Assembly: GCA_950295325.1 (NCBI GenBank)
Contig: OX485806.1
Location: forward strand, 51,205,169-51,269,168
Direction: 5' to 3'
DNA: 64,000 nt
DNA from: Polytrichum commune
Lineage: Eukaryota > Streptophyta > Polytrichopsida > Polytrichales > Polytrichaceae
Shown: piece by piece, positions 2,951 through 42,880 of the stretch
How positions within the stretch are numbered: the first letter of the stretch is position 1
Layout: the number at the start of each line of letters is the position of its first letter
Program-made: the position numbers and the translations under genes
Notes under the pieces: model-generated
What the model was told of the DNA's origin: nothing
The model's input: the letters and a program-made list of their open reading frames with translations, nothing else
The model's database searches: none

Positions 2951-4132
2951 TGTTGAGCGTATGAGGACCAGATTTTGACCAGATTTCTAACTTCATGTTT
3001 TTCTCATCTTAGTTGGAGAAAGGGATTGAGGGTGAGATCGCCTCATTTGAAAATGAATGCTCCATCGACATCGAATGGATTTCTACGGAAGATCTTTTGC
3101 AACCTGCTCATTTTGTCGAGCATTGGAGGCTCATTTTGTGGGACAAGGCTTTTCGGGTGTATTTTGATGACAAGGGAATCTTGAAATTCACCAAAAGGAT
3201 CGATCTTATGGAGTTTGAGGAAGGTCCCATAGCTATCAAGCGCGTTGCTTACCAGTATTCATTTTTGTTTTTCTTTTCTCCTTCATATCTTCCTTTGTTT
3301 TCATTATTTGAACTCCGTTCCTTCTGATGTTCTCCGATGTGTAGGTACATTCAGCGTGAGCTTGTTGTTTAGAATGCTCTTCTTTCTTTGTCATTGTCGT
3401 CATTCCTTGACGATGGGATCGATGACAACTCAAATCTTTGTGTGTACACTCCCATGCAACTTGTAAAATTTCTACGCGTGCATTTGGTGGTTGGTGGTTG
3501 GTACTTGGATTGCTCTCGTGGATTCGTTCCCGACGTAGAATAACCCCTCTACAGCAGCCTCGCTTCCTCTGCCCCTGAGGTAATTGAATTGGAGCAAGAG
3601 CCGGAAGAAGATGAGAATCTGGCTCCTCCCACCATTGACAAGGAGGTTGCACCGGTGAAGGCCAAGGCCAAAGGCAAGAGGGAGGCAAGAGAGTCAAGAC
3701 TCCACCCGTTCTTTCACTAAGGCCTCCGTTCGGGGCACTGCAGCTCCAACTACCACGGTTGTAGGAAATCCAACGGCAACTCCTTCTGCCCTTCCTCGGG
3801 ACCATGTTCCCGCTCCTTCCCATAGCGGTGTCACCATTCCCTCCGTGCCGCGCAAGAGGAAGGCCGTTGCTCCGAATACCTCCGTAACTTCTTCGGAGAA
3901 GTCGTTTTCTCTCTCTTTGATTGAGAATGTCGACATGGGGACCTTATAGAGGATCTCATGGCGTCTAAAGTTCCCCCTCGCGCTTACCGCCGCATCCAAA
4001 AATTCCTTACTAAGGTCTGTACGACATTCTCTTGTTTTCTCGTTCATTCATTCTAATTCAACACTTATTTTCTTATATTTTTCTATGGATTTTTGCTTTC
4101 CAACTTGGAACGGGTCGTACTTGTCTTAATAG

Positions 4133-5589: not shown

Positions 5590-5941
5590 GTAATTTCGAT
5601 TTTTTGTGTGCATAAGTTTGTTCTTGGCTTCTAATTTGCTTGCTTAGATTTCTATCTTCTCCATTCCGGATTTTTGTCATGTGTTAAATTTTTTTTTATT
5701 CTATATTTTTAGAGTTCATATTGACAGCCCGATTCGTATCCTTAATGTGGACATGTTTGCAGCCCCTTCGACGACATTTGAGCTCCCTTTCTATGCTGCT
5801 AACCTTGCCCATGTTTTGGCGTAAGCACCGTTCCCACCTCCTAGTCGTACCCGCCCTTCCAACAAACTAGTTTTGGATTTCCTAGAGATAGAGGCCGACC
5901 AGGGCGAGGATAATGATAGAGATGGTACTCCAAGTTCTTGA

Positions 5942-6120: not shown

Positions 6121-7881
6121 TTAATTGGACTGGTTCGGCCTAGGTGTATATAAGGGCCAGATTTTGATTTGAATGTATGTGAGGCATGTATGTTTAAGTA
6201 GGTATTTCTTGTGTGTTGTGGTTCGGCCTAGTTGTGCATGGGTTGGAATATGACCCTCTCGGATCTGAGAGGGTCATGGGGTAGGCTCATAAAGGCCAGA
6301 TTTTGATAGAAATGTGTGTGAGGCATGTATGTTTAACTACATTTTTCTTTTGTGGTGTGGTTCGGCCTAGTTGTGTATGGGTTGGGATAAGACCCTCTCG
6401 GATCCGAGAGAGACATGGGGTAGGCTCAAAAGGGCCAAATTTTAATAGAAATGTGTGTAAGGCATGTATGTTTAAGTAGATTTTTCTTGTGTGGTGTGGT
6501 TCGGCCTAGTTGTGTATGGGCTGGCATAGGACCCTCTCGGATCCAAGAGGGTCATGGGGTAGGCTCAAAAGGGCCAGATTTTGATAGAAATGTGTGAGGT
6601 ATATATGCTCAACTAGAAATTTCTTGTGTGTATTCGGTTCGGACTAGTTGTGTATAGGCTAGAATAGGACCTTCTCGGATCCAAGGTGGTCAAGAGGTTG
6701 GCTCATAAGGGCCAGAGTTTGATTGAAATGTGTTTGAGGCATGTATATTTAAGTGGATATTTCTTGTGTGTTGTGGTTCGGCCTAGTTGTGTGTGGGCTG
6801 GGATAGGACCCTCTCAGATCCGAGAGGGTCATGGGGTTGGCTCATAAGGGCCAGATTTTTATAGAAATGTGTGTGAGGCATGTATGTTTAAGTAGATTTT
6901 TCTTGTGTGGTGTGGTTTGGCCTAGTTGTGTATGGGCTGGAATAGGACCCTCTCGAATCCGAGAGGGTCAAGAGATTGGCTCCTAATGGCCAAATTTTGA
7001 TAGAAATGTGTGTGAGGCATGTATGTTTAAGTATATTTTTTGTGTGGTGTGGTTCGGCCTAGTTGTGTGTGGGCTTGGATAGGACCCTCTCGGATCCGAG
7101 AGGGTCTTCATTTCAGGGCTTGAGGACCAGATTTTGAATTGAAGGTTGTTTATGTTGTATGTGTAGATGGTGTAGACTTGTGTGCACTAGTTTGGTTGAT
7201 AGTGTCGGGTAGGACAAGTTGGGGTTGACGGGTTGAACCTGTTTTTGTTGGGTTCATATTTGTCAAATTAAGGGGTTGGACTATGTAGGGACCCTCTCGG
7301 ATCCGAGAGGGTCATGGACTAGTTCGGCCTAATTGGGCATGGACTAGAGAAGGGCCTTCTCGGATCCAAGAGGGTCTTCATTTCAGGGCTTGAGGTCCAA
7401 ATTTTGAATTGAAGGTTGTTTATGTTGTATGTGTAGATGGTGTAGACTTGTGTGCACTAGTTTGGTTGATAGTGTCGGGTAGGACAAGTTGGGGTTGACG
7501 GGTTGAACCTGTTTTTGTTGGGTTCATATTTGTCAAATTAAGGGGTTGGACTATGTAGGGACCCTCTCGGATCCGAGAGGGTCATGGACTAGTTCGGCCT
7601 AATTGGGCATGGACTAGAGAAGGGCCTTCTCGGATCCAAGAGGGTCTTCATTTCAGGGCTTGAGGTCCAAATTTTGAATTGAAGGTTGTTTATGTTGTAT
7701 GTGTAGATAGTGTAGACTTGTGTGCACTAGTTCGGTTGATAGTGTCGGGTAGGACAAGTTGTTGTTGACGGGTTGAAACTCTTTTTGTTGGGTTCATATT
7801 TGTCAAGTTAAGGGGTTGGACTATATAGGGACCCTCTCGGATCCGAGAGGGTCATGGACTAGTTCGGCCTAGTCGGGTATG
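6121..7881. repeat. Second palindrome array (139-bp, then 270-bp higher-order units)
   Basis: Seven or so 139-bp units related to those at 1-1120 (palindromes near 6251, 6391, 6530, 6667, 6807, 6947 and 7082) are followed by a longer unit of about 270 bp. Successive TCTTCATTTCAGGGCTTGAGG blocks start at 7105, 7375 and 7645. The longer unit contains two palindromes, one intact and one with a GCCTTCTCGGATCCAAGAGG variant. Adjacent 270-bp units are nearly identical, which suggests recent amplification. The third unit is cut by the gypsy insertion at 7,882 and resumes at 13,821. Confidence 0.9.
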
Positions 7882-8062
7882 TGTCAGCCACCAACCCCCA
7901 CCTCTAAGCGTTGTAGTCCAGGTGATAGTTGGCGGAAGACATGTAACACTTGATGCCTACCAATATTGCAAGAAGCCTCTAGTCCATATCATAGCAATGT
8001 CAAGCCACAGTTTATTTCATTACACGGAATACAAGCATTTATAAATGTTCTTCTAGATTGTC
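7882..8062 (-). repeat. Remnant of the 3' LTR of the gypsy element
   Basis: This stretch, from TGTCAGCCACCAACCCCCAC to GATTGTCCTCC, matches the start (plus-strand view) of the full LTR at 12333-12513 with about ten substitutions. Similarity stops abruptly at about 8,062, where gag/protease-like coding begins. That is the deletion breakpoint. Confidence 0.85.
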
Positions 8063-9232: not shown

Positions 9233-11431
9233 GGCCTCTCCCTATCTTGGAGAATTACATTCTCCTTCTCTAGTGCCTCAGTGGCTCTTCTAGCTGTCCT
9301 AGCTACTTTCTCTAAATCCAACAATTCGGGAGCCTCTCTCGAAAAATCCTCCTCATGTGGCTCCACATCTTCCTCTTGTGGAAGACTTCCTCTCATAGCT
9401 CTAGTGGTGATCGCCAATGCCGGCGCCTCATGAGTAACTTTATTATCTAAACCCCTCAATTCATAGGTGATGGCATTAGTGTGTAGAGGCCATTCACCTT
9501 GTTCCTCACCAACACCCATTTGAAAAGGGATAGACTTATCACGGTGTGGCTCCACTACACCCTCCGTGAACTTGACATCCTGAGAATTCGACGGACCCGG
9601 ATTTATGGGAGGGGTTTGCCTCCGATTGTTGAAATTCTGGGGAGCCCCTTGCCTATTGTGAATCGGAATGTATCCGTTTGTCGTTTGCAATCCCGACGGA
9701 GGATGAAAATTTTGCCTCGCATTCCCATGATCATAATACAAATTTGGCGACCTAAGCTCATTCGGTGGCCCACCTTGTGGTCTAACACCCCTCATGTTGT
9801 CCCTCGCTTGTTGTTGTGGATTGGCCACCCGGTAAGGCATGTTAATGATCTTATCCGGTTGACGACATTCGTCCGAAGGATGGTTTTCTCCACAATTACT
9901 ACAACCATAATCTTGTCCCTCGGACAAACATTGACCATGTACATGCCATCTTCCACAAAACGGATGGAACTCCTTCTTCTTCATGTTTTGACCACCCTGT
10001 CCTCTAGAAGTAGGTCCTCTATTGTTATCCTGTCCGTACTGAATTTATCCTTGATCTCTTTGGTTTTGTGGAGGTGGACCACCGTTCATTCTTTGATCCC
10101 AGTTTGGTTCATTCCTACAAAATTGACGAGTGTGATCCAATTGGCTACACTGAACACACCACAATCCCGAGGCATGCCTATCCGATTCAATTTGAGGAGG
10201 AGGACCAAATTGTTGGCTCCTAACCATCAATGACATTTGGTCCGTCAGACTTTGCATTTGCTTAATCATGGCATCTTGAAATCCCAACTGACTGGCTTCT
10301 AATCTCTTCTCCACTTCCTCTAAATGAGGGTCCACTGTAGAAGCCGATAATACTAAAAGTGGTGCCGGTTCCCTAACCGCCAAAGGACGTGGACCCGCGT
10401 CAATGAGAGCATATGGAGCTTGACTCCCATACTTACCTTGCTCTCCCTCCACCATTCTCGGTCGAATAGGAATGAATTGAGGGATTAATTCATCCTCCCT
10501 TCTCCACAATCTTTTATGATCCCTATCCAAATTCTCCATCTTCCTAGCCGCTCTCTTGGCATCCGCCAAAGTCTGAGAACCCCTCTCAAGAACATCCCTA
10601 ATTGTTCCCGACTTAAAAAAACCTTAAATGAAGAATTGTTTTAGTGTGTCATCATTGAGCATGGTGCCCACAAATCGTGTACACACTAAATCAAACCTTC
10701 TAATATAAGCGGAGATCTCTTCTTCCCTACCTTACTTCATTGAAGCCAATGCCCTCAAAGCCCGTACTTTGGCCAACCTCTGGCCTTAAGTCATTGAGAA
10801 ACTCCCTTTGTAATTGCTCCCAGTCTCTAAAATGTCCCTCGGCATGGTCTCTATACCACTCATAGGCCTCACCCTCTAAGGTAGTCAGAAACCACACCAA
10901 CCAATATCCCTGATTAGTCACAAGAGAACTAGCCAACCTCTCAATGTACCTCTCTATATGCCTAGATGGATCCTCATCCTTAGTTCCATAAAACTTAAGG
11001 AGGTGGGATGGCATGTCCACCGCCGCTAAATTTTGTGGAACCACAATTGGTAGAACTCTCGGTCTAACAAATGGATCAATGGGGTCCACCGGTGGTATGG
11101 GCCCATCTCCGTCTCTTTGCTGTGCCATGTTGACTAGTGGATCTTCTCCTACGTCCCTATCAATCCGTATTGAATTGCCTTCCCTAGGTGTATCAACCTC
11201 TAATGCTATCTCGTCACCCAACTTAGAAAGAGTTTCCTCGTTGTCAACTTGAGCCTCTTCCTCTACTATTCCTAACAACAGACTAACACTAGGCTCCGCA
11301 TTCAAGCAATTTTCTAATTTAATTACAACTTCTTCTCCAACTTCGGGAATCCTTGACAATCTTCTCCTACATGTAACTTTGTCTACTCCTAATTCCAACC
11401 TTGGTTTTTGAGATCGAGTCTTACGTTGCAT
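9233..11431 (-). pseudogene. Ty3/gypsy gag (retrotransposon capsid/nucleocapsid), broken
   Basis: Three open segments (11431-10727, 10569-10045, 9984-9233) form one gag. The first holds the retrotransposon-gag core (MPSHLLKFYGTKDEDPSRHI, LEGEAYEWYRDH, WEQLQREFLNDLRP). The second holds a CCHC zinc knuckle (WCVQCSQLDHTRQFC, spacing CX2CX4HX4C), and the third a Cys/His-rich tail (FCGRWHVHGQC, CSNCGENHPSDEC). Gag forms the virus-like particle and packages the element RNA. A frameshift near 10,727, an in-frame TAA near 10,624 (FFI*GFF) and another after QRDQG near 10,045 disable it. The 5' LTR lies 0.9 kb upstream on the same strand. Confidence 0.8.
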
Positions 11432-14660: not shown

Positions 14661-15580
14661 TGAGTGTTCGGACTCTCAACTTTGTGTGAACCAGATTCTC
14701 AACTTTGATTCAGGTGATGAATCTATTTGAATTTAAAAATGCTCTCACTTCCGTTAGCCTAGATGGGTAGGCCACATTCTCAACTACGATTCATATGATG
14801 GCAGTTGGGTGTTTTCTTGGATGCTATCACTTCCGATAGCCTTCAACCCTAAACCAAATTCTCAACTTTGATTCAGGTGTTCAATGGTTGTGTGTTTTTG
14901 GGTGCTCTCACTTCCGAGAGCCTATATGGGTAGGCCACATTTTCAACTTGGATTCAGGTGTTGAATGGTTGTGTGTTTTGGATGCTCTCAATTCCGAGAG
15001 CCTTCATGTGTGAAAAACATTCTAAACTTTGATTCAGGTGTTGAATGGTTGTGTGTTTTGAATGCTCTCAATTCCGAGAGTCTACATGTGTGAACCAGAT
15101 TCTCAACTTTGATTCAGGTCTTGAATGGTTGTGTGTTTTGGATGCTCTCAATTCTGAGAGCCTACATGTGTAAACTAGATTCTCAACTTTGATTCAGGTG
15201 TTGAATGGTTGTGTGTTTTGGATGCTCTCAATTCTGAGAGCCTACATGTGTAAACTAGATTCTCAACTTTGATTCAGGTGTTGAATGGTTGTGTGTTTTG
15301 GATGCTCTCAATTCCGAAAGCCTACATGTGTGAACCAGATTCTCAACTTTGATTCAGGTTTTGAGTGGTTGTGTGTTTTGGATGCTCTCAATTCTGAGAG
15401 CCTACATGTGTGAACCAGATTCTCAACTTTGATTCAGGTGTTGAATTTTGTGTTTTTTTGGATGCTCTCACTTCCGAGAGCCTACATGTGTGAACCAGAT
15501 TCTCAACTTTGATTCAGGTGTTGAATGGTTGTGTGTTTTGGATGCTCTCACTTCCGAGAGCCAGATTTTCAACTTTCATT
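14661..15580. repeat. 80-bp tandem array
   Basis: About eleven units of roughly 80 bp, each with TCTCAACTTTGATTCAGGTG, then TTGAATGGTTGTGTGTTTTG and GATGCTCTCA..TTCCGAGAGCC. The core CTCTCA-N-TCCGAGAG is again a small imperfect palindrome. The central units (15,020-15,500) are nearly identical and the left-hand units are more diverged. The array ends directly at the start codon of the ORF at 15,584. Confidence 0.9.
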
Positions 15581-16147: not shown

Positions 16148-16950
16148 ACACGTGGAGGAGCCAAATGGATTTTTTTGCGCACACATTTTTTTCTTTTCTG
16201 GAGTAAATTATTTATAGCAAATTGAATTGGATACACATTTTTGTAAGTCTTGATTTTGGCATCTAACTTCACCTACATTATCTCGGCCAATCAAATATTT
16301 TGTGTATGGGAATTCTGGACATCTAAGAGTTCTTGGAATGAGTACCATACCATTCAACTTCTTCTTCAACATATGTTTTGATGTTTGATTTCAATTGATG
16401 ACGTCAGCCCTAATTTAATATGAAACCATTTCAAAACCTAGACTATAAGATCTTTCATAACAAATACATTCTTCCACGCCTTTAGGTTCCGTTTGTTCCT
16501 CGACCTAGGTTGGGTCAATATCTCCACGGGATTAAGGTGCCTTACAACAAATTGAATTCAAACTATTTATAAATTCCACGGAAATAAGCACTGTTTGTCC
16601 TATTTTTACCCTACAAATTCAAAATTTTCCGCTCTCTAATTTCCGCTCTACGCTCACACTACTAAGTTTCCCGAGCCTAACGGGGGAGGCCCCAAAAGAA
16701 GGGCAACCCAAGTGAGTCCCAAAGTAGGTGGGTCTAGTGTAGGATAGGTCCTTGGAGGGTAGATCCAAGGTCGCTAACAGACCACCTAGGAACGACACCT
16801 TTGGGACTATGCCAAATTTGAAGATGCATTGTGGGGGTCGCGCCCTAAGGTAAACACAATGCCGCACCATAGAGGATGGCACCTTGAGAATTGGTGTGCC
16901 AACTACGAGTATAGTCAATGAGGGCATCGACTCCGTTTGGTGGGGGTGGA
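16148..16950. other. Intergenic, no gene seen
   Basis: AT-rich for 450 bp, then a GC-richer stretch (16,670-16,950) with no recognisable domain on either strand. The open frame on the minus strand here continues into the repeat copy and looks like chance. Confidence 0.5.
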
Positions 16951-17924
16951 TATCGCGCACCTCTTCATGAGGAGTGCCTGAAACACCATGGGCACAAACG
17001 GGACCCCAGAGTGACACCCGAGACTTGTGGCGCCGTTGGTGAGAGGGCCCAAGTGATCCTAGTGTGGGTGAGGACCCCGGACATTGGGAATGCCTCCCAC
17101 CCACAGAGACTAGGAGGCACAAGGGTAAGGCCATGAGCTATGCGTAGCTCATGACGTGGTGATTCTAGATTGCTCAAGATCACCTCAATCGGAGGTGTGA
17201 GCTAGGAGTTATGGCAATTTGAGTGGGGCGCTGTCCCGGGACAGCGCCCTAGTACAGCAGTGCCTGGGAGTGATTCCCGGGACTGCCAAGGTTCAAACAG
17301 GCATAACTTCGTCAATACTTACTTGAATGGCGCAATGGAGGAGTCCATTGGCATCTAAGTAAAGCGTAGATGATGATGGAGTGGTTGCTTGTTAGGATCG
17401 GACATCATACAAGGAAATTATGATGGTTTAAACCTGCTGGGGGCTTCTAAGCCCAACAACTAAAGGAAAATGTCTACTTGGCCCCAACTCTTGGTAGAGA
17501 GACAAGAGGTTTCTTGACGGTGGGGTAGGGGCCCCGCGTAGAGTCCTAGAGGCTTATATGGGTGAGGTGGTGTGGCTTCACCCACCGGAGGCCGAACGGC
17601 ACGGCCTCCATGGGCATTGGCCCAATGTGAGGCCATAGTTGCCTAGCACGCTTCGGGTTGTTGTAGTGTTGCTCCGGCAACACGATGATCAATATAGGAT
17701 TGGACTTCCATGGATGGAAGTCCACATTGAAAAAATGGGTTACCAATTAAGGGGTGAGTCCCGAAAGTAAAGTAGGAGGGTTGGTTCCCCTCTTATGAAC
17801 TCGAAGGTCCGGGGTAGGAGGAACTAACCATTAGCATGGCGGAATGCAAAGGGTTAGCGCTCGTTACCTTTGCTAGAAATGAAAAGAGACAATATTGCTA
17901 AGGGGGCTAGCAAGGGTTGCGACA
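16951..17924. mobile_element. Solo-LTR-like repeat, copy 2
   Basis: Full-length relative of 8291-9227 in the same orientation. It runs from TATCGCGCACCTCTTCATGAG to GGGTTGCGACA and includes the same GCTGTCCCGGGACAGC palindrome. No 5-bp duplication is visible, because the right side runs directly into an inverted partial copy. It is more diverged than copy 1 would be from a fresh insertion. Confidence 0.75.
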
Positions 17925-29040: not shown

Positions 29041-29970
29041 CATTTAGAGTTTTATAGTTTTATTTATAGTTTTTAATGATGTATGGTGAACCCCAATCTA
29101 AGCAATAATGAATTAACTATAAGTATTTGAATTTATAATTAAGATAGGTGGAGGTAGAAGGCTTGGTTGAATAGATATCGCGTTTTCAAACCTCGTAATT
29201 TTTGCAATTTGTATCCGACTAAAATGAATTTTATATCTCTAGAAACTAATGATGTGTACTATATAAATTAATTATGGTGAGGCCAAAGTTATATTGCATT
29301 AAAATGATGTTTTAATCGTTGAATAACCCAAACTCCATAACCAAGTTAGTTACAAGCAAAGAGACAAGGTCAATGTATGGGAAGTGGAGCAAGGGAAGGA
29401 TGTAGCCCCTTGGCCTACATCGAGCCCAACCAAACTAGGAGCATTGAAATGAATTGTCAAACGCTCAATTAGAGTTGGAGGGAGTGCAACCAATGTATGC
29501 ATTCCTAAATCTACTCACCTATTGCGTAAGGTAAAGTGATTTGATCACTTGATCATTAAGGGAAGTACCCACCTTCACTGTTTTCAGGACCCCTTGGTAT
29601 GTTTTGTGATAGTATTTTTTATTATTTGAAAAGTTCTGTATGTGGTGAAGTCGGATTAATCACCGATACAACCACTCTGAATGTCGTTGGTGGAATAGCC
29701 TACGTATTGTTTTTCACCCTAGTCCCAATAAGTTGCATTTTGTGGTCTATCTAGTGTAAACACACTTAACGATAAAAAACATAAAAACATATCGTGAACC
29801 CTTGTTGGTAAGTAGTTTGAATTGGAAATTTAACCCGATAGGATAACACCACCCTTCGGACCATTGAAGTCCAAATGGCTTGAGTTATCACACGACCTTC
29901 AAGGGGTTTCAGAAGGTTCTGAACTAAGGGGTGCATCAACCATGCAATGGGTGATGCGTAATACATGAAT
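27736..29970. repeat. LTR-like direct repeat, copy A (left part)
   Basis: It starts TGTGAACCCCT and matches 38,975 onward over its whole length: TTAGCATTAAAA..AGAATTGATAGGGAA, CTCGGC..GTGGCAACCTCAA-type text, GGGCGAAGCCCT, TCGGATTAATCACCGA and CACTCTGAATGT. Similarity is interrupted at about 29,970 by the Mutator-like element and resumes at 37,368. It includes a (TA)n run at 29,014-29,040. No coding region was recognised. Confidence 0.75.
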
Positions 29971-30224
29971 AAGGGAAACTAAGACATGAGAAATGAGCAA
30001 TAAGTGGTGAGTAATAAAAACTACCATATTTTGAAAATAAAGTTGGTTTTAATGTACACATTCTAAATTTGATATATGTATTTGGCAAGAAATTGTATAA
30101 AGTGTATGCATTTTGCAAAGAAAAATAAATGAAGGGAGCCTATAACTATGGATAACTAAAAAACTATCAATTCATTATTGATTTTTATAATAACAATCCA
30201 CACTAATACATGTCATTGAAATTG

Positions 30225-33220
30225 TCAAACATGCGATTGAAGACAACCCTTGTAATAAAATTCATAGTCTACCATACTTGCAAGTTCAAGTAGCCGCATG
30301 ACCTCATTATAGGAGTACGTTGGAGCGTGAATGAATTTGTCACTATTGTAATCAACATTGCACAAAAATCTAAACACATAATAAAGATGTTTGCAATACA
30401 TCCATTTTCTTTTTCTTCCCAAGGATAGAGTTGACATTTCTGTGAAGTTAGGGCATGTGCATTGCGATATGCAACATCGCACATATCAACATTGCATATC
30501 GTGTCACAATTGCACATATCGCAATGCACATGGGAATGTCTCTTCCTTGGAGACAATGTTGATTGCAATTCCAAATCCACGATATGGAATGGCAGTTACT
30601 CCAACCACATAAGAACCGTCCATGAGCCCAATGTTCTCCCATTTGCTTTTGTGTTTTGCCATTGGTATCGCTAGATTATGGCGCACTGGCTTTCCAAACC
30701 TAAAAGTTGGGTGGACATCCGGGTTTGGTGGAGCACAGAAACCCATTTGAGGGATTGGAAGTGTGGTGACTATAGAAAACCTCCCTCTGCTGCAATTGGA
30801 ACCTAGAGTCTTCGAATGCCAATACCTCATGCTTTGAGAGAATGATAACTATCTTCATCGGCCATGTGTTGGGTACTACAGGCCAATCCAACACGTTTTT
30901 TTTGTTATTATTTATACAACGTTTAATGTTGTCAGGGCAAAACCAAAACTCATACTCCACATTGTTGGTGGAACAATATTCCTTCTTCAATCATTTGTAC
31001 GTAGGAGCAGGGATGCCATGTTTTCCAATCCCGACTTTGGCGTTGCAAAAAACCCTGGTATTGGTTTGCATGGCCCAACATCCTCTGGCAGAGCTGGGTG
31101 GCATTCTTGCAATATGCGAATGGAAAGAAGGATGATCAATCTCTAACATAGATGTGCTATGTTCCACACCATGCTCTTTAGAATTCAAGGATTCCTCTAT
31201 GCATGTCTTTTTAGCTCTTGTAACCGGACGAGGAATTGAGGAGTTCATTTTGTCAAATCGATGTGAATCGCAATCTGCACCTAGTGGTAGATTAAGCTTA
31301 CGTTTGGTAGATCCAAAAAGCTCAGAACCCTCTAGAGTACAATCCCTAGTGTTGAGAGCTTCCACCCGTGGATAGAACTTCATGGCTTCTGCCAATAGTT
31401 TTGGATCTCCACACATAGCAGCAACCTTCAATTTCAATGACAAGGAATCAAGGCCTTTACCAGCTGAACCACCTTACAACCCTTACCTATAATTTGCAAT
31501 TTGCATAAATGCATGGATCAAATCGTCCATTGTTGTTTTGTACAAACAAGTCATTTTATTTCCGGATTGTTGGAGCCATTTGTTGTGCATCGTCTCTGCA
31601 AAATTACATGTTGGCATTTTAACACGTTCATTTATAGTCATATCCTGCAAACATTACAGAAATTATAGTAAATTTCATATACCATCGATATTAATAAACA
31701 AAAAATATTATATAAAACAAAGTGGTGATGTATACACAAGAATCATATGACCACCTCATTACCTATAACGGAAGTGCCAAAAACCCAACCACTCAGAAAG
31801 CCCAAGAACGCCTTCCTCTTTGGCAGCTCCAAATGACAACCATCATGAACAAATGACATGATATTTAGTTTTGGCTTCATCCATTGTTTTTGCGTCCTTG
31901 TAGTCTTTGCATAAATTTTTGTGGTGAAATTGTAAATATATCTTGATGTATTTATGTGTAAACTTATCCAAACTTTGTGACCAATAAAAAAGACAAATAC
32001 GCTCGTGACCCATCATTGGCAAAGTTGGATCACCTTCATTATATATCTTTCTAACCGCAATCCAATTCGTTTGCACACTGTCCGCCATAAAACCTTTAAA
32101 ATTCACGTTTGACACACCACTCTTCGCCATCTTCAGATTGCATATCACAACACGCAATAGTCAATACCTTGTAATATTTGCTATCAAACACATGGCAAGC
32201 AAGGGTAGTCTTGTTCTTCAGACGTTTGACATAGTCAAATATTGTCCATGGGTTTTTCATATCTCTTCCAACTTGTATACGCTTAATAAGATTCACACCA
32301 CTCCCTTGAAGATCTACATACATTTTCAAGACAAGTACTTTGTCTTTGGATTGGCCATGAAATCTACTACCATGGACATATTTGAAGCCCGAATGATCTT
32401 GAAGCGCCATTATACTATCCATCATTATCATTCCACTATGAATAGAAAGTTTAGAGCTTAATATAAAGTTACAACAATTTGGAGAAGCAAGAATACTAAA
32501 TTTATCCATGACAACCTCTAAAAATGAACATGCTAGGTGTTACCCTTTATTGTTTGATGGAGATTTGAGGAGATGGTGTGCAAGAAATTGTTTGCTTACT
32601 GCTATTACTATAGCAGAGTTCTTGGCAGTGGGTGTTTTCATGACCTCATTAGCAACACATTGATAAGCTACGTCTAGTGACTCACGGCATATACCATTTG
32701 ACACAGGGTGTTCATGAATACCAAGATGTATAAGCCCTTGACATCTCTAGGGATATAGAGTGGATATATATTATCCAAGCATGGTACAATGAAATTCACA
32801 CGGGTGTAGTTTGACATATGTTACATTCAAATCTTGTTTTTTATGGGGCAACATTCCCCACAAAAATGGGACATGAGTTGATCCAACCCATTCAGTGTTG
32901 TTAGGAACACCTTCATTACGATACATATAATCACAACAGTTTTTTACACATTGAAGATGACCAACAAAAGAATAATGTTTGAAAGACAATCCAAAATCGT
33001 TTTTGATATTAGTTATGCACCAAGGATGGCCGTCACACATCTTATCCATGCCATCCATAGCACGGCCATACGTACTAAGAACATCCATAGACAATGGGGG
33101 CAACACAAACAAAACTTCACCATCAAACGAAGGACGCAAATACTTGACATCACGTAGATCTATGTTATCAAAATCAATTGTTGTAAGATCGGATTTAGAC
33201 CTTCTTCTAGACTTGGTCAA
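30225..33220 (-). pseudogene. MULE-type transposase with SWIM zinc finger, broken
   Basis: Reading order: N-terminal block (VKYLRPSFDGEVLFVLPPLS, YGRAMDGMDK, GHPWCITNIKNDFGL, GHLQC..CDY); a Cys/His block recovered with a +1 frame change (HEHPVSNGICRESLDVAYQC); a DDE-like core (FSILASPNC, IMALQDHSGFKYVHGSRF, ACHVFDSKYYKVLTIACCDM, NFKGFMADSVQTNW, ERICLFYWSQSLDK); then FWFCPDNI..DWPVVPNTWP; and a C-terminal SWIM-like finger (CTCPNF...YCKHLYYVF). Position and residues fit a Mutator-type transposase: D in CCDM, D in MADS, and C..FxW in place of the usual CxxH. At least five frame changes or stops break it (near 32,770, 32,510, 32,100, 31,740-31,440 and 30,500). It cannot encode a working enzyme. 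Confidence 0.7.
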
Positions 33221-35100
33221 TTATAAGGCATCGACGATACTCAAACATAAAGAAGATGAAGAAGGGTAAAGATGTGGACGGGGAGAAGGAGATACATGAG
33301 GAGGTAGTTTTTTCAATGGTAGACTGCAAGAGATATTATCAACATCTGTAGGAAACACACTTGGTGGAGTGGAAGTTCCACCTATTCTAAAAAAAACGAT
33401 GTATCAAAAAAATCAACAACATGACAAACATCATCATCCGAATTGGAGAGCAAAAAAACAATATTTTCAGTTGGTTTAATCTTCATATTAGAGAGTTAGG
33501 TACTTAGACAATAGATGTGCAAGAATTGTTTGTAAGCACAACAGTGAATGATTGAACCTATGAATAAAAAATACCTATAACTCTAAATGGCCCAAAACTC
33601 CAAATCCAAAAATAGCCAACTTCATTCATGGTCTTCTAAAGCAAAATAGTTTCCAAGATATCAATGTCCATACAATACATATCTTGCTCCACATCCATAA
33701 TTCCTATTCGGAGATTGAACCTCAAGATAAACAAATCCTCGGAGACATTCACATGACCTTGATCCGTAAGCGGTAAAGTGAAGGGCACAAAGGATCCAAG
33801 AGCTCTGATGATAACTATGATGAAGTAAGAGGGAGGAAATGAGATATTGGACATCAAAATAAAACCATTATTTGTATTGGCAATATGGGATTGATTTAAT
33901 TGCATAATTATAAAATCAGAGCACATAAAAGGTTTAAAAAGATGGCGAAAAACCTAATGGCTGAACATATATATCAATATAATGAATGCATTCATGTTAT
34001 TATAAGCATGATGTATTACAAAGACGAACATAATAATATCCAAATACCATAAATAAATAAATAAATAAATAAAAATTGTAGAGTGAAAAAAACCAAAAAC
34101 CACTATAATAAATGTCCCAAAATTGATTCCCTGGCGTAGAAACCCTAAATCAATGGGCCATGTTCTAGTCCGTCGTACTAGGATCTTTGATACCAAAAAT
34201 ATAGGATGTGTTGTAGATCATTAAATAACATGCATATTGTACGTTATCATAGTAATTTTGTATAATTATTTTAAATACAACAATAAGAGAAGATGTAAAA
34301 CAAAATCTAATACTCATATATAGAATTTTGCACCAAACATTATATGAGTGTAACAAAGGGTATGTGTATAGCATTTGGACAACAATATCACAAATGTTAG
34401 ACGAAGAACAACATGAAAGTGGTAATGAATTGAGTGGGAGAAAAATAATGAGACGGAGACTATTGTATTTTACAACAAAGAGAGCTCGTGAGTAAGCGAA
34501 TAAAATGAAGAAAAAAATCTCAAAACGTAGTTTACAAAGATGTTGTTGATTTAACTAAAACAAAAAACTATATAGAACTTTCTAAAATGAAAGAGAACAA
34601 TGAGGGGCATGAAGTAGACTTGGATGCAAATGCAACTCAACATATAGTACAACAATTCCAAAATCAAAGTGTCAACAGTACGAGCTTAGAAAAATGACAA
34701 ACCAACACTGATAACAAAAACAAAAAATGCGACGAGGAAAACGAGCTACACGACAAAAGTATAAAACTCCCACATAACGATGCATGATATGTTGTATTGA
34801 TGCAAAAAAATATTTAAAAAGATTCTATGCACACAAATGTAGGAAATTCTTTTATGTATCCATTATGTTATATTTTTTGCTCAACCACTAGCTCATTGGA
34901 AAATAACACTAGTCAATGCAACCAACCAGATTCAAACCCAAGTTTATATAGACTGACACACGAGTCTCTTTATATTACTCGCGTCTATAAACAGATGTCT
35001 TGAACTGTTCTTGCCACAATTATAGTCATTTGTTTAAGGATAATGGGCGTTTCTAACATGGTTTGTACAAATAACAGAAACGAGGTATGGGAATGCAAAA
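33221..35100. other. MULE interior, no gene recognised
   Basis: Very AT-rich, with an (AAAT)n run near 34,049-34,075. The minus-strand open frames at 33,926-33,636 and 34,374-33,954 are hydrophobic or low-complexity with no motif. Confidence 0.45.
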
Positions 35101-35565
35101 TATATTGGTAGCACTGCCAATATCCCCCTAATACGAAATTAAAATTACGTATGAGAGCCTTGGATAAAAATGAAAATTAGTTTTGGAGGCCCGAGGTATT
35201 AGCAATGCTACCAACACTCATGGGGTGAAGGAAAAAATTAGTTTTGAAGTCCCTTGGGATATTGGCCTCACCCCCAATACCGTAGAGAGTGGGGGATAAA
35301 CAAAAATTAATTTTCACTGCCTTAGAGGTATTTGGAGGTGCCACCAATACCCAAAGAGTAAAATGAAAATTATTTTTAGAGGCCCGGGGGTATTGATGGT
35401 GCCACCAATAGACAAGGGAGAAAAAATAAAAACTAGTTTAGAGGTCTTGGGGTATTGGCCATGCTGCCAATACAATACCCTGGGGGTTAAAATGAAAATT
35501 GGTTTTAGAGGCCCTCAGGGTATTAGCGGTGCCACTAATATCTAGGGGGATAAAAAAGAAATTTA
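35101..35565. repeat. Imperfect ~75-bp tandem repeats inside the MULE
   Basis: Six or so diverged units with GAGGCCCGGGGGTATTGG, GTGCCACCAATACC and GGGGATAAAAATGAAAATTAGTTTT-type blocks. They lie immediately upstream of the methyltransferase-gene-like segment on the same strand. GGTATTGG and CCAATACC are inverted within each unit. Confidence 0.75.
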
Positions 35566-35570
35566 GTTTT

Positions 35571-36700
35571 TCAGTGTGAGATTGCCGATGCCAGAGATCT
35601 TGCAAAAAAAATTCAGCTTACACGAAAGCTAGAGCGGTCCTCTGAAGGTGTATCTAAGGTTATGAATGCAGCAATGGACACTAAATGTGTCAAGATGGAT
35701 TTTAATCTTACAAAGCATTTGCCTATTACATATCCTTCTTTAGGTCTTGATTTCTTAGCTTAAATTAAAAATATTATGACTTGTGCTTCGATGAGCCGCG
35801 AATGAATTAAGAAACACTTCAACATCTTTTGACATCGAAAGTGGATTCTTAACAAAAAGTAAAGTGGTTGGAGCTTTGGAATTTTACTCCTGTTTTTTGG
35901 ATGGCTTTGAAGTTCCCAAAGATGTTTGTCTCCGATAAGGCTTTTGATATTTGGTTACACAATGCCACACTTTGGAGTTAGATGTGCATATTATTTTTGT
36001 TTTGTTTTTGTTCTCTATTTTGTACTTATGCTTATTTTTTTCCATTTTAATCATTTTTTTTATGTTTCCATTTTTATAGTTGGCTAAAAAAACTTCTGCA
36101 CTTTACGATTCCATTGATCTTGAGTGGAACATTATTATCAACGTGGATCCAAATGCAACTCAACCTTTGCCAACTTTTGCTAATTATATGAAGTTTTGAA
36201 AAGTGTCATACTGAAAAACGATTTTTTTTTCACATTTTCAAATCGGCTGATGGCGTTATAAAACACAAAACCTTTGAAAAACAACCTAGTGGTTTTCAAG
36301 CCATGAGACAGATTATTTACAGATACCCTCATATATATTGTAGCATCATTAATGTAATTTTTTTTGTTTCAAATTTTTTAATTTTGATTTTTTTTTGACA
36401 TATATTTTAAACACATCTTATTTCCTCCTAATGCTTTGGACAAGCTATCACATTTCTTTGATAGTTTCAAGGATGTTCAATCAGAGAATTCCATGTTCAT
36501 TCTTGAAATATACAAACAATAGAATGAGGTTTATTGGTATGAATGTGGATGGTATCTGGATAGTCCACCTAATAAAACTTCACATTTTGAATTGGAATTG
36601 CGTGACCATCTTGAACCAAGATCTACCATATACAAAGCCTATAAGAGGAAAGAGAAAAAAAATTACTCAAGTCTCTAACCATTCTAAGGAAAATGACGTT
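35571..36700 (+). pseudogene. Second, diverged copy of the ParB/MTase gene's middle region, carried by the MULE
   Basis: Plus-strand translation gives KWLELWNFTPVFW and FVSDKAFDIWLHNATLWS, followed by an intron and then LAKKTSALYDSIDLEWNIII, PLPTFANYMKF and, after a frame change, FKSADGVIKHKTFEKQPSGF. These align in order with the pseudogene at 2,628-3,350: RWLRWWNFPAKV, PLREKALDDWLHKSSFWAQ, intron, LEKGIEGEIASFENECSIDI, AHFVEHWRLI, YFDDKGILKFTKRI. The intron falls at the same point and both downstream exons begin with TTGG. A later segment (FFDSFKD...GWYLDSPPNK) matches LSSFLDD...GWYLDCSRGF. Neither the ParB nor the methyltransferase end was recognised here. Multiple stops are present. Confidence 0.65.
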
Positions 36701-37367
36701 ATGAGTGGTGAACCTTCTGCCAAAATACGTAAGGTGCTTCAACCTACTACTTCATCTTATACCAATCATGTCATTTATTCAATGTTGGAGTCTTTCTCCT
36801 CTTTTAAATCAAGACTAAAGCTCCTAAACTTACGCCATGTAATTCTAATCAGAATTCATTCGAGCTCATTTTAAATGACTCGTTTTTTATTAGTTCTTTG
36901 GTAGCACTTGTTCAAGTACCATAATTGATGTTTTTTCTTTAATATACTTTTATTTATATCTTGGAGTTATACATGTTTTCTATCCATTTTTATCTTCCTT
37001 GCATTTACTATGTTTGTATTGTATTATTGACTTATTGCAATATTAAGTTATATTTTAATATGTCATATTTTCTTTTTATGTTGGTCTTACTATAAATGTT
37101 AATGATACTAATTATTATCATGTCATATGGGATGCAATACCACAATTTAAATTTCTATATGATACATATTTATATGTCCATTGTCATTTTCACTACTTAA
37201 TGTTTAATTCTCACTACTCATAATCTAGAATTTTTCTTTTTAACCTTACAACTGTGCCAAAATACCACGCTAATAAGATACCAGTGGACCTATTACCAAA
37301 TATTCTTCATTCCTCACCGCTTACGTGTTACCGCTCACTGCTCACCACTCATAAGATAATATTCCCC
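36701..37367. other. MULE right end, no gene seen
   Basis: Ser/Lys-rich coding-like tail up to about 36,880, then AT-rich sequence leading to the right inverted terminal repeat (about 37,320-37,367). Confidence 0.4.
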
Positions 37368-37895
37368 TACATGAATGTAGTTAGGTAGGATGTGTAAACA
37401 ACATTAACTAAGTAAGAAAGAAGTTGTGTAAAGGTGGGACTTAAGCCAAATCCCCCCACTTATGAAAGTTAAATATAATTAAATAAGGAAGTAAGAAAAG
37501 ATTGAATGGTCGTTCAAACTGTCATTATTCCGTCCATTGAGCTAGGGGTGGTATGAGTCACATCCGGTTAGTGTGTACCAAAGAAATTTCAATTCATAGG
37601 TTATGATTGCCTTGGTTCCAAGGTTTGTGTGTGTGTGTGTTTAGACTAGGTTGTAGGTCTAGGTTAGAACTAGGTATGAAATGGATTAGTGGAATTTAAA
37701 GCCATAATAATAAAAACTAAGGCCCAATCTTTGGAGGTACTACAAGTGCAATTCCAATTCCCCTCCAAAAATCTATGCACTCATCGTATACACCTACCAT
37801 CCGGAATTGGCTTGGGACCCTGCAAGTGCAAACTATCCTCACCAAAGGACTTGTGTAGCACTTTTAGGCTCCCTCAAAGGGGGGTGGCCCAAAAG
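37368..37895. repeat. LTR-like direct repeat, copy A (right part)
   Basis: This continues copy A after the MULE and matches 41,278-41,801: AAGGTGGGACTTAAGCCAAA, GGTATGAGTCACATCCGGTT, ATTGCCTTGGTTCCAAGG and GGCTCCCTC..AGGGGGGTGGCCCA. Both copies diverge just after GGTGGCCCAAAAG, so the repeat probably ends at GGCCCA. Confidence 0.75.
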
Positions 37896-38974: not shown

Positions 38975-41801
38975 TGTGAACCCTTTGAGTGGTCCACCAC
39001 TCTGCGGGATCACTTTTAGTTAGAATGTTAGCATTAAAAGTTAGAATTGATAGGGAATTTAGGAAAAATTAGTTCATTTAGCATTTAGCCTAGAAGAAGG
39101 AAGGTCAAAATGAAACTAAGTAGTGCTAGAAGATAGCAAAGTAGAAAAAATGTGCTAGCTAGTAAAAACAACTAGCTAAGCAAATATTAGTAGATGCTAG
39201 CTATTAAGCAAATGTTAGTAAATGCTAGCTAAGCAAGTGTTAGTTTATTAGTAGTGTGAGGCACACAAGACTATTAGAGGTGGTTTAGGTAAGAAGATAA
39301 AATCGGCGTGAAGAATTTTGAAGACAAAAAAGAAAGAGACCAAGGGGGATACTTGCCCACTTGCCCCCTTGCCAACTCGATGGCGGAAAAATTAGAAAGA
39401 TTTCTAAAGGTTTTTTGTCGGAGCCACCTCGGCGAGAGGGTGGCAACCTCAACCGGGAAAACCCCCGAGCCAAAATTTCGGGAAAGGGTTTGAAAAATGG
39501 ATCCGGTGGAGGAGGGGTCCAACCCTTTTGTGAGAGGGTTTAAAAACCCCTCCTTCCACCTTGTAGCTCTTTCTCTTTCTCTAGTTTTTGGCGAAGCCCT
39601 GCTTCAATGTAGTTAGGAAAAAATCCTTTAGCATGTATTCTCAATGGTCTAGAAGAAAGGCTTGAGAACCTCCTCTACTCTCTCTCTCCTAGTTAGGTTG
39701 TGTGTTTATTAACACACCAACAAAAGTATTCCTTCTTTTGTAGAGGTAGGTTGGATGGTAGAATTTTGAGTAGAGGCATTATAGACCTCATCTGCCAATG
39801 CCCTGAAGGCTTAGTTCAAAAGCTAGAACAAGATACTTATCATTTTTCTCTTAGAGAGATTTCATATAGCTATCCATAGCCGTTTCCCATTTGTGATTTG
39901 GTTGAGATGACAATTAGTTATGGATTTTCAAAGATGGAGTAGAAAAACTGGGTGGTCTTGTGGGTAGCGGCTGCTGGATCAGACCTGCGAGCCCAATAGG
40001 AATTTTAATTCCAAGAAATTATATTTTTTCCAAGTAGAACTTTTGTGTAGCTTTCCAAAATGGCTTAGAACATTTGATTTGAGCATGATTTGAATTAGAT
40101 ATGAATTGTGCAAGATGGGACACATAGTTTGAGAACTTTTGGTTGACTGCTGCATTACAGAGGACCTGCTGGGTTCACTTCGGCTTACCTTTCTAATCAC
40201 ATATTTTTATCAAATACATCTTTTTAATATCTCTCCAGGGTCATATAGAACGTTTGATTTGACTAAGATTTGAATTAGATATGAATTGTTGAAGGCGAGA
40301 TACATAGTTTAAGCCTTCTTGATTGACTGCTGTGTTACAAGGAGTCCGCTGAATTTCTATTAGCTTAACCTGCTGATGTCATAATTTTTTCTAGTTAGAG
40401 CTTGTTCATAGCTTTCCAATGGTATAAGGAAAGCCTAGATCCAAGTAGTAAGGAATGTGCTATGAATTTTTGAAGTTAGAAGGTAGATAGGTGGGTTGGA
40501 AGGGTCGGTTGAATCGACCTCACACTTCCAACCCTCATAACTTTTGCATTTCTTATCCGATTAGAGTGATTTTTAGATCATTGGAAAGATAATTTGGTGC
40601 ACTAAGTATAAATATTATGCTTAGGATTAAATTACAGGGAAAAATAACACTTTATATTTTAATTGTTAACTAAGGTACGCTTACTACCAAACTAGTTACA
40701 AAGAAGGAGGCAAGGTCGACGCTCGGAAAGTGGAGCAAGGAAGGAGGTAGCGGCTCGGCCTACATCAAGCCCAAATCAACCGAGGAAAATTGAGGTAAAT
40801 TAACTAACCTTAAGTCTTCCATTTAGGATTGGAGGGAGCACGGCTAAGGTACGCATTTCTAAACCCACTCACCTATCTCGTAAGGTCAAGTGGCTTGACC
40901 ACTTGACCGCCAAGGGAGTACCCAATTCCATTGTTTTCGGGGCCCTTGGTATGTTTTGTGGTAGTAGCTTCATTTATTAGCAAGTTTCGTGTGTGGTAAG
41001 TCGGATTAATCACCGACACGACCACTCTGAATGTTGTTGGTGGAAAGGTGGGGTTAATGACCCGCGAATCCACTATTATGTTGTTGGCCCCATAGATTGG
41101 GAGTAATGGCCCCAATTTATGAAGATTGCGCAACAGGTTGAACCTACAGGTCGCCCGTCACCCTGGTCCCATTGAGTTGCATTTCGTGGTCTATCCAGTG
41201 TAAACACATTTAACAATCAAAACATACAAAATAAATCGTAAACCCTTGTTGGCAAGAGACCCGAGGTAAGGGGTGATGCCTAATATGTTAATGTAGTGAG
41301 TTAGGACGTGCAAACAAAAGTAAGTAATTAAGAAGGAATTTGTGTGAAGGGTGGGACTTAGGCCAAGTTCCCCCGCTTAGAAAACTAAATAGAACTAAAT
41401 AAAGAAATAGGAAGAATTGAATGGTCCATCAAATTGTCGTTATTCCGTTCGTTGAGTTAGGGTGGTATGAGTCACACCCGGTTGGGTGTATCAGAACCAT
41501 CCCAATTCACAAATTAGGATTGCCTTGGTTTCAAGGCTGGTGCGTCTGCGCGTAGAATAGGTTGTAGGTTAAGGTTAGAACTAGATATGAAATTGGTTAG
41601 TGGAGTTTAAAGCCACACTAGTAAAAAACTAAGGCCTAACCTCCGGAGGTACTACGACGCATATTTAATCTTCCTTAAAAATCTAACTACTCACGTTATA
41701 CACCTATCATCCGGGTTCGGCTTGGGCGCCTGCAAATGCAGGCCACCTTCACCGAAGGGCTTGTGTGATATTTTTAGGCTCCCTCGAAAGGGGGTGGCCC
41801 A
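38975..41801. repeat. LTR-like direct repeat, copy B (about 2.83 kb)
   Basis: Uninterrupted relative of copy A in the same orientation, starting TGTGAACCC and ending GGTGGCCCA (TG..CA). No reading frame of note. No 5-bp duplication matching the flank of copy A was found, so pairing as the two LTRs of one element is an inference. Confidence 0.7.
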
Positions 41802-42880
41802 AAAGTACCACAAGGAGCTTAATGTGGTGTGCATGCCCCAAAATTCCACGCCACCCATAGCCGTGGACATAGACACATTTGTTGAGGTTTCCCAATTGCA
41901 CACGAGGTTGTCATGGATGCCATACAAGAATCATTCACTTAAGTTCTAGACCTTAGGAGTACAAACACGAATGTTATTAGTGTTGCCTCCAAGATTACAA
42001 GTTAATTACATGTCGCAAAAAATAAATAGTATGGGTCTAAATTTATTGATGAATAACGTTTGGGTGGGGATTGAAGAGAAAGCTAGGAAGGAGTAATTTT
42101 TGGGTTCAATAGAATCTCCCATTTGATGTAAAATACCAAAACCAATACCCAAAACTTGTTTCGATTTATTATTGATTTCAAAACCCAGTTTACTATGTAA
42201 TATCATGGAGTTGTTGAGAATAGACGGAATGACACTATGGAGCCCAACTTGGCCTATACATCTTAGTTGGTTTTTGGTATGCCTTAAGTGGATCGTGTGG
42301 GGGAGGCGTAATGATAAGAGGTGGGATTGTTAGCTACCGAACAACCTCAGCATGTCACCACCTGAATCAAACGCTCCGCATTGGAGAAAATAGCCTTTGC
42401 ATGGCAATTGTTAAGGATATCACAGCTGAATCAGAGCCTAGAATTGTCGCCACATACTAGTTTTTGGCACAACGCACATGAGTTTTTGGAAGCGTGTAAA
42501 ATTCATCATTAGAAATTCCATGAATTAGTCCAATGACATCAAAGCATCTGTAAACCGCTTCCAAACATCTGCACTAACTCGTGTCACGTCAAAAAACACC
42601 AAGGTGAAGGAAAAGAGGTAGTTGGCAAGATTCCATCCAACATGCCAACCATTAGTGAGTTGCATTCAAAAAATTATACATAGAAAACGGGAAAATGAAA
42701 CAAGGTAAGGTGGAAGTGAAAGGCATGTCCAACCTTTATATAAGCAACATCGCAAGCTCATCCTACATGTGAGAAGGAATATAGCATGTATAGGTTACAA
42801 AACAATATCAAGCGTCATTACACATCTATCGACAAAGCTCCAAGAAGTTTTTCCTATGCTTGAAGGACATGGTATTGCCA
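41802..42880. other. No gene seen
   Basis: Mixed sequence with many stops in all frames. It may contain the 3' part of the transposase relic that follows. Confidence 0.4.

Follow-up and report, generated by a model that had tools for sequence, protein, structure and literature searches.

DNA transposons which carry, besides their transposase, a gene for a protein combining a ParB-like region with a DNA methyltransferase have already been described. In the brown alga Ectocarpus, Sola1-1_Ec32 encodes such an accessory protein on the strand opposite to the transposase, and green- and red-algal ParB-methyltransferase cases are cited in the same article (PMC12477816). How transposons recognise themselves, escape silencing and spare their host is still an open question, for which VANC of the Arabidopsis VANDAL elements offers a worked example; the targets of VANC are tandem repeats in noncoding regions, varying between related VANDAL elements (PMC5735166; PMC10398659).

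The window, a stretch of 64,000 nucleotides of Polytrichum commune (C4:51205169-51269168 in a 408-Mb genome), contains two copies of a gene of comparable layout, hereafter copies A and B. WRKY matches, together with TTTAGGG arrays at the end of a contig, point to a plant genome. The segment 35571-36700 corresponds to exons 4-7, in decayed form, of a gene with 11 exons (copy B) on the strand opposite to a Mutator-like transposase, and the element that contains it comprises the following features, where E5 is a related element and G3 a subfamily treated below:

29962-29970, + strand: left 9-bp target-site duplication TACATGAAT (direct repeat)
29971-37367, no strand assigned: decayed Mutator-like element with copy B, target-site duplication TACATGAAT on both sides
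30225-30485, - strand: C-terminal exon of the transposase with a CxC..CxH (SWIM-like) pattern, recognised by eye
31732-33854, - strand: transposase exon in broken pieces (31-51% identical to the G3 transposase by tblastn)
35099-35544, no strand assigned: seven degenerate B-type palindromes GGGGTATTGGCGG-CA-CCGCCAATACCCC, 6-11 mismatches each
35578-35745, + strand: copy B exon 4 (58.6% identity with E5 exon 4, E 3e-17)
35769-35978, + strand: copy B exon 5, KWLELWNF..WLHNATLWS (72.9% identity with E5 exon 5, E 4e-33)
36080-36226, + strand: copy B exon 6, partial (E 7e-5)
36403-36600, + strand: start of copy B exon 7, GWYLDS (74.2% identity with E5 exon 7, E 2.5e-29)
37368-37376, + strand: right 9-bp target-site duplication TACATGAAT (direct repeat)

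Copy A lies near the left end of the window, flanked by arrays of a palindrome:

1-1122, no strand assigned: upstream array of copy A, palindrome GACCCTCTCGGATCCGAGAGGGTC, period ~139 (Tandem Repeats Finder)
1397-1960, + strand: copy A exon 2, ParB-like domain (exon comparison)
2054-2248, 2329-2526, 2628-2846, 3013-3252 and 3346-3919, + strand: copy A exons 3-7 (exon comparison)
4104-5935, + strand: copy A exons 8-11, methyltransferase-like region (exon comparison)
6150-7871, no strand assigned: downstream arrays of copy A, palindrome GACCCTCTCGGATCCGAGAGGGTC (Tandem Repeats Finder, WL 16150-17871)

Several readings of the initial annotation were confirmed by these data. The transposase pieces (33854-31732, minus strand) and copy B (plus strand) lie on opposite strands, as it had stated, and TACATGAAT borders the element at 29962-29970 and 37368-37376, in agreement with the 9-bp duplications it had proposed. 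The ordered peptide similarity between the copies also held, KWLELWNF (35862-35885), DSIDLEW (36107-36127) and GWYLD (36547-36561) of copy B having plus-strand counterparts in RWLRWWNF (2724-2747), CSIDIEW (3058-3078) and GWYLD (3496-3510) of copy A. When the copies were aligned locally exon by exon using BLOSUM62 and scored against shuffled copies, exon 5 scored 114 (shuffle maximum 56; 0/2000 shuffles reached 114) and exon 7 scored 39 (2/2000), exons 4 (34; 14/2000) and 6 (32; 23/2000) being marginal by themselves. The four exons joined scored 137 against a shuffle maximum of 65 (1000 shuffles), so that the similarity exceeds the shuffled controls overall, chiefly owing to exon 5. The shared intron of the annotation separates exons 5 and 6 and interrupts the identical codon in both copies, with the GT donor retained in A and decayed in B. 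The annotation had placed copy B inside a Mutator-like element as a second copy of part of the ParB/MTase gene; its location in such an element was upheld. A related transposase adjoins copy A immediately to the left of the window (C4:51198857-51202729; compared with the G3 transposase, 89% identity over residues 303-761 and 55% over residues 40-308), and copy A is thus transposon-borne rather than a host gene.

Both copies are damaged. Copy B retains exons 4-7 alone and contains in-frame stops, and in its relatives the similarity reaches past 35571-36700 to cover exons 2-11. Copy A has stops in exons 4 and 7-11, and its exon 8 is in two parts (4104-4259 and 4757-4948). The ~500 bp that split this exon (4260-4756) have ends that look inverted (GGGTAGATCACT ... 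AGTGATCTACCC), and the insert looks like a small inverted-repeat transposon. Upstream of the palindromes of copy B, a lysine-rich plus-strand frame (about 34440-34697) resembles positions 7631-7960 of the related element E1 by eye; it could represent either a third gene or an exon at the 5' end of the accessory gene. Outside the element, the stretch directly to its right (about 37374-37895) is 79% identical over 524 bp to 41290-41805, forming a local repeat.

Both ends were found for four elements, namely that of the window, G3a, E1 (on C1) and E5 (on C5). G3a measures 16,665 bp between its CTCGGGTGG duplications, and TATGTGAGCGTAGAGCG is common to its two ends beyond the first bases, the terminal repeats being short and imperfect. 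E1 and E5 possess duplications of their own (GTATGCGAC and CATGAGTAT, respectively; including a further base extends the match to 10 bp). The target duplications differ among the four elements, each being of 9 bp. The ends of the window element agree at 13 of 25 positions, again short and imperfect, and its termini are similar to those of E1 and E5; homology to E1 extends over about 30128-33889, 35570-36887 and 36963-37351. In transposase and gene, E1 and E5 align at about 94%, large insertions also being present. The G3 element is apparently recent, with 99% identity between two copies along most of the sequence; for this pair both ends are known for G3a alone, the left end of G3b having been sought and not found. 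In the extended G3a locus (reverse of C3:8685001-8707000), a charged open frame (2468-2953, + strand) was noticed inside the element, between its left end and the point where the transposase gene ends.

Target-site duplications of Mutator-like elements (MULEs) measure 9-11 bp. The transposase was labelled Mutator-like because of the 9-bp duplication, the SWIM-like pattern and its acidic residues, two D and an N-x-x-E-S stretch that we took by eye to be the acidic-residue motif. This sequence-based assignment is provisional: the Pfam MULE domain did not match the transposase, the only Pfam match of the window piece 30225-30485 was DUF6208 (E 0.015), and the E1 counterpart of the SWIM-like exon matched Pfam SWIM with E 0.004 and 17.1 bits, under the cut-off of 19.6.

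The complete form of the gene was seen in G3a, where 11 exons separated by GT-AG introns of about 80-110 bp make up 1088 codons including the stop, in frame and transcribed away from the transposase. The reading frame is interrupted by one internal stop, and the 99%-identical twin G3b has a single stop elsewhere. Exons were found in the same order in E5, E1, L023, L024, L025, L028 and L034, some being absent in the diverged ones, and recurred across subfamilies down to about 25-45% identity, also in L035-L037; for L022, L026, L027, L029 and G2 the retrieved sequence did not yield the later exons. Many gene copies contain stops, both window copies among them. The dN/dS ratios were calculated by the Nei-Gojobori method with stop codons left out, many pairs being saturated at dS and giving no value. 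Between subfamilies with finite dS, they were 0.06-0.26 outside the linker exon and 0.10-0.44 within it; the ParB and middle exons gave 0.06-0.10 in most of these pairs and up to 0.26, and the methyltransferase exons 0.16-0.20 (three pairs among G3a, L023 and L034, all G3-like there). Judged from these ratios, the accessory gene is under purifying selection. For E1/E5 the overall ratio was 0.54 and that of the methyltransferase part 1.24, values that fit decay.

The association between the gene and the transposase was assessed over the genome, in which the DNA of copy B matched 44 stretches. The ParB exon of copy A (best 150 scored of 1269 candidates), the transposase exon (best 150 scored of 1217) and the G3 sequences (best 59 transposases of 2424 candidates and best 150 ParB exons of 1278) were used as queries; the 59 transposases derive from 60 listed stretches, two of which belong to one transposase, with every remaining row kept. 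A divergently oriented ParB exon from among the 150 scored occurred within 25 kb of 45 of the 59 scored transposases, in comparison with a mean of 0.29 and a maximum of 3 pairings in 1000 random placements. The other 14 had none within this distance among the best 150 of the 1278 ParB candidates, and since the scored lists are the best of longer lists, absence there is no proof of absence from the genome. Three further transposases of a different group (742-aa frames; L035, L036 and L037) were picked for having no nearby ParB match among the matches listed, and all three proved to have the gene in the 10 kb upstream on the predicted strand, with exons 2-5 and 7-10 in order in L035 and L036 and exons 2, 3, 5 and 7-11 in L037. 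The gene or a fragment of it lies inside the target duplications in 4/4 elements with both ends found (G3a, E1, E5 and window B). At first look, candidates for the ParB/methyltransferase gene number more than a thousand and belong to many subfamilies. The gene is present in most members studied, on the opposite strand and in a fixed layout, and of the two origins that the initial annotation had left side by side, a capture event and a standing accessory gene, the latter was borne out by the kind of check it had suggested. We read the segment as the decayed remnant of such a standing gene, one that belongs to a large clade of Mutator-like transposons. Pack-MULEs lack a transposase and carry fragments of host genes; this class was rejected, since a transposase is present in the window element and in the 45/59 pairings. 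By eye, many of the copy A-type ParB exons among the best 150 crowd at 41-59 Mb of C4, and the G3-type ones among the best 150 are spread over the large contigs. Directly upstream of one gene copy (L002 1-900), a mariner-like transposase fragment was noticed by eye, apparently a nested element.

Between transposase and gene, Tandem Repeats Finder detected tandem arrays containing palindromes of 20-28 bp, the sequence of which mostly differs from one subfamily to another. The G3 unit contains GAGGCCTCGGATCCGAGGCCTC, that of E1 and E5 contains GGGGTATTGGCGG-CA-CCGCCAATACCCC, and the 742 group has GTTTGGGTCGATCGACCCAAAC plus AAACCCTGTGCGTTAACGCACAGGGTTT. The E5 array (L011 6431-6926, period 64) is better preserved than that of window B, and the upstream array of copy A extends leftward beyond the window (WL 9420-11122, corresponding to window -580 to 1122). 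A-type sites thus occur on both sides of the copy A gene, and a near-copy of the A-type palindrome was seen by eye in its intron 5 (about 2924-2947). The prediction that each subfamily has palindromes of its own was tested in the 4-4.9 kb upstream of seven more subfamilies. It was clear in 3/7, namely L023 (the G3 site, plus a second, non-palindromic 75-bp array), L024 (AATCCCACGGATCCGTGGGATT) and L027 (GTGTCTCGGTGCCGAGACAC); weak in 2/7, L026 (GGTTTCGGGACCGAAACC) and L028 (29/300 and 11/300 shuffles, respectively, with one mismatch allowed); and failed in 2/7, L029, where 53/60 shuffles were as good as the array unit, which has five near matches to the L027 site, and L025, without an array in 4.9 kb upstream. 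Over twelve representatives (G3, L023, A, E5, 742, L024, L027, L026, L028, L029, G2 and L025), the outcome was clear in 7, weak in 2, an array without a significant palindrome in 2 and no array in 1; the unit of the 60-copy G2 array is not palindromic (296/300 shuffles as good). Perfect arms were equalled in 0/300 shuffles each for G3, A, E5, 742 and L024 and in 1/60 for L027, these shuffles preserving base composition and not dinucleotides. Four unlinked control arrays, a small control, gave no significant palindrome (best 10/60), and palindromes as a general property of tandem arrays were rejected.

By eye, most palindromic sites have a CCG core in common and arms specific to the subfamily. 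The matrix of motif counts over 17 loci is nearly diagonal, the off-diagonal sites including 6 of the 742 type in G3a. Exact sites numbered 1903 for G3, 330 for A and 1591 for 742 in the genome, and the reversed control gave 0 each. Among the first 50 listed of the 1903 G3 sites, all on C1 in three arrays plus one stray site, 49 fall in intervals bounded by a transposase and its paired ParB exon, and such intervals make up 140 kb of the 77.9-Mb contig C1. For the A type, 38 of the 51 sites listed (of 330) are at most 6 kb away from a ParB exon out of five chosen ones. Elsewhere in the window (14683-15562), an array with an 80-bp unit contains the near-palindrome GCTCTCAATTCCGAGAGC, which is not significant (86/300 shuffles) and resembles the half-site of the A group. 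Neither a ParB exon nor a transposase match adjoins this array in the window, and it is perhaps a remnant of another element.

Two loci bear on the part of the element that the site follows. Across almost the entire exon, the transposases of L034 and G2 share 86-89% identity with the G3 transposase, a value of 86% having been obtained for each. Exons 7-10 of L034 are likewise close to G3 (74-89%), whereas its exons 2-6 are 72-91% identical to the A group (copy A, L022 and G2) as compared with 55-72% to G3, a pattern by which L034 is a natural recombinant. Its sites are of the A type (ACCCTCTCGATTCCGAGAGGGT), with no G3 sites, and G2 combines A-like ParB exons with an A-like half-site (by eye) and no G3 site. 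In these patterns, the palindromic site follows the 5' half of the gene. Since the array adjoins this half, the correlation in L034 could also be plain physical linkage.

The same loci weigh on the explanation that the palindromes are sites of the transposase or of a host factor, the accessory protein acting otherwise, for example by nicking in transposition. Other transposases do bind internal repeats, and with only 55% identity to G3 over residues 40-308 the A-type transposase differs in its N-terminal part, as the sites do; L034 and G2, however, have G3-like transposases without G3 sites, and the A-type sites of L034 and the A-like half-site of G2 match their A-like ParB exons, although linkage could mimic this match. 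Nicking itself has a parallel in the nonspecific nicking by the Bacillus cereus ParB-methylase, cited in PMC5512222. Taken together, we regard the transposase or a host factor as an unlikely reader of the palindromes.

The encoded protein begins with a ParB/sulfiredoxin-like region, continues through a middle region and a linker of low complexity, and ends in a domain resembling beta-class amino-methyltransferases. A profile of the C-terminal exons matched M1.HpyAVI (E 2.4e-5) and CcrM (E 0.02) in the PDB. The fold modelled for the C-terminal part (pLDDT 61.1; the model includes an insert derived from an intron) matched CcrM (E 2.5e-10), M1.HpyAVI (1e-8) and a rotifer N4-cytosine methyltransferase (1e-7) in Foldseek, and M.MboIIA (Z 15.7, rmsd 4.8 over 186 residues) and CcrM (Z 15.7, rmsd 4.3 over 200 residues) in VIA. 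The motif order IV...X, I is that of beta-class DNA amino-methyltransferases, and the SAM-motif stretch is kept (DWQCGVGGS in G3 and DLTCSTGAS in the 742 group). PHROGs gave weak methyltransferase matches (best E 0.0032), and Pfam searches with single exons of the gene and transposase returned chance-level matches alone. According to the model and profiles, the C-terminus is predicted to have a beta-class DNA amino-methyltransferase fold.

An active DNA N6-adenine or N4-cytosine methyltransferase marking its own transposon would agree with this fold, with the retained SAM motif I and motif X, and with the dN/dS of 0.16-0.20 in these exons (three pairs, G3a, L023 and L034), and such activity was suggested by the authors for the brown-algal relative in PMC12477816. 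The tetrad position speaks against it. The catalytic tetrad of beta-class amino-methyltransferases is (D/N/S)PP(Y/F/W). We found DIPE (G3, L023, L028, E1 and E5), DIPK or DISE (L033 and L034), DVLE (decayed copy A), DVPD (L024), EYPD (L025) and QFPD (742 group) at this position, and none of the loci with a readable exon 8 has a DPPY-like tetrad, the aromatic residue being always absent. Active methylation thus appears doubtful, slightly more so than the transposase reading. Of the "transposon-borne DNA-modification system" envisaged in the initial annotation, the transposon-borne gene (by the census) and the methyltransferase fold stood, and modification became questionable with the missing tetrad.

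The ParB assignment of the N-terminal exon is plausible but weak. This exon shows an invariant GNHR in a 13-row alignment and looks ParB/Srx-like by eye, and the nine best Foldseek matches of its model (pLDDT 53.5) were sulfiredoxin chains (E 0.5-3.9). The Pfam ParB model matched 0/13 members, VIA returned no Z of 2 or more for the model, and the exon profile retrieved nothing credible from the PDB. No relatives of exon 2 were confirmed in viral and prokaryotic contigs, scans of a kind that miss remote relatives.

A ParB-like protein together with palindrome arrays is the layout of bacterial partition, and palindromic-site arrays adjoining the gene were clear in 7/12 representatives; a true ParB-parS-like device that tethers or clusters elements, or keeps excised copies through division, is nevertheless improbable in our judgement, given the weak ParB assignment, the lack of a ParA-like gene recognisable by eye among the ORFs read, and the fact that integrated elements need no partition. 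Pack-MULE-style capture of a host ParB/methyltransferase gene fragment by one element, to which the introns kept in the fragmentary copy B and the similar copy A about 32 kb away had pointed, is rejected because of the census and is highly improbable, copy A adjoining a transposase of the same kind, the gene accompanying 45/59 transposases and 3/3 more in one fixed orientation, and a full 11-exon gene lying within target duplications elsewhere.

We return to an accessory gene that serves self-recognition through the palindromes, which is our favoured explanation and in our judgement reasonably likely. The accessory protein, as a dimer, would bind the palindromes of its own subfamily via the N-terminal half, and we consider such binding somewhat more probable than not. 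The bound protein would coat or mark the noncoding centre of the element and would allow expression of the two divergent genes in the face of silencing by the host, in the way that VANC does for VANDAL, with the methyltransferase-like domain serving as a DNA/SAM-binding module instead of an enzyme. By this analogy the accessory protein is probably a VANC-like factor of self-recognition and anti-silencing; anti-silencing as the outcome is, taken separately, a fair possibility at somewhat less than even strength. More tentatively, and with less confidence than in anti-silencing, the fusion of a ParB-like part with a dead methyltransferase might behave as a ParB-parS-like system, loading on subfamily-specific arrays, spreading, and blocking or resetting silencing, with protein halves and site arrays exchanged by recombination to give new specificities.

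Among known systems, bacterial and phage ParB-methylase fusions likewise join a ParB domain to an adenine methylase, and differ in being prokaryotic (PMC5512222). The TET/JBP genes of fungal DNA transposons are similarly a transposon-borne enzyme family tied to DNA methylation; unlike the present gene they encode dioxygenases, in fungi, and ParB has 0 occurrences in PMC12730594. Extra ORFs are frequent in MULEs, as exemplified by mudrB of MuDR, and the word methyltransferase is absent from the main text of a survey of these elements (PMC6446971). VANC is likewise the second gene of a Mutator-like element (PMC5735166), and its tandem-repeat motifs differ between related elements, for which protein-target co-evolution was proposed (PMC5735166; PMC10398659). 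The VANC21 motif is YAGTATTAY, and the string "palindrom" is absent from PMC5735166, in contrast to the palindromes here. The function of VANC has been demonstrated (PMC5735166; PMC10398659), whereas that of the present protein is inferred.

The closest counterpart is Sola1-1_Ec32, which as described in PMC12477816 resembles the present elements in the size of the protein, about 1,100 aa (1104 there and 1088 codons here), in the ParB-like region, a tentative assignment here, in the N4C/N6A-type methyltransferase on the opposite strand, and in being a giant DNA transposon (21.5 kb there versus 16.7 kb for G3a). It is a Sola1 element of a brown alga (same source), whereas those analysed here are Mutator-like with 9-bp duplications in a plant, include more than a thousand candidates at first look from many subfamilies, lack a DPPY-like tetrad and contain palindrome arrays, "palindrom" not occurring in the main text of PMC12477816. 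The literature searched, which included few subscription journals, returned no such gene in Mutator-like elements and no loss of the tetrad or palindrome arrays for such a gene. A transposon ParB-methyltransferase gene is thus already known from Sola1, and the Mutator-like host, the lost tetrad and the palindrome arrays are new here. Next to VANC, the elements present a second, seemingly unrelated protein architecture with candidate target sites alongside in several diverged subfamilies. They also suggest that the annotation "transposon DNA methyltransferase" may conceal a non-catalytic protein. With candidate sites beside the gene and natural recombinants at hand, the specificity between protein and site and its evolution become directly testable.
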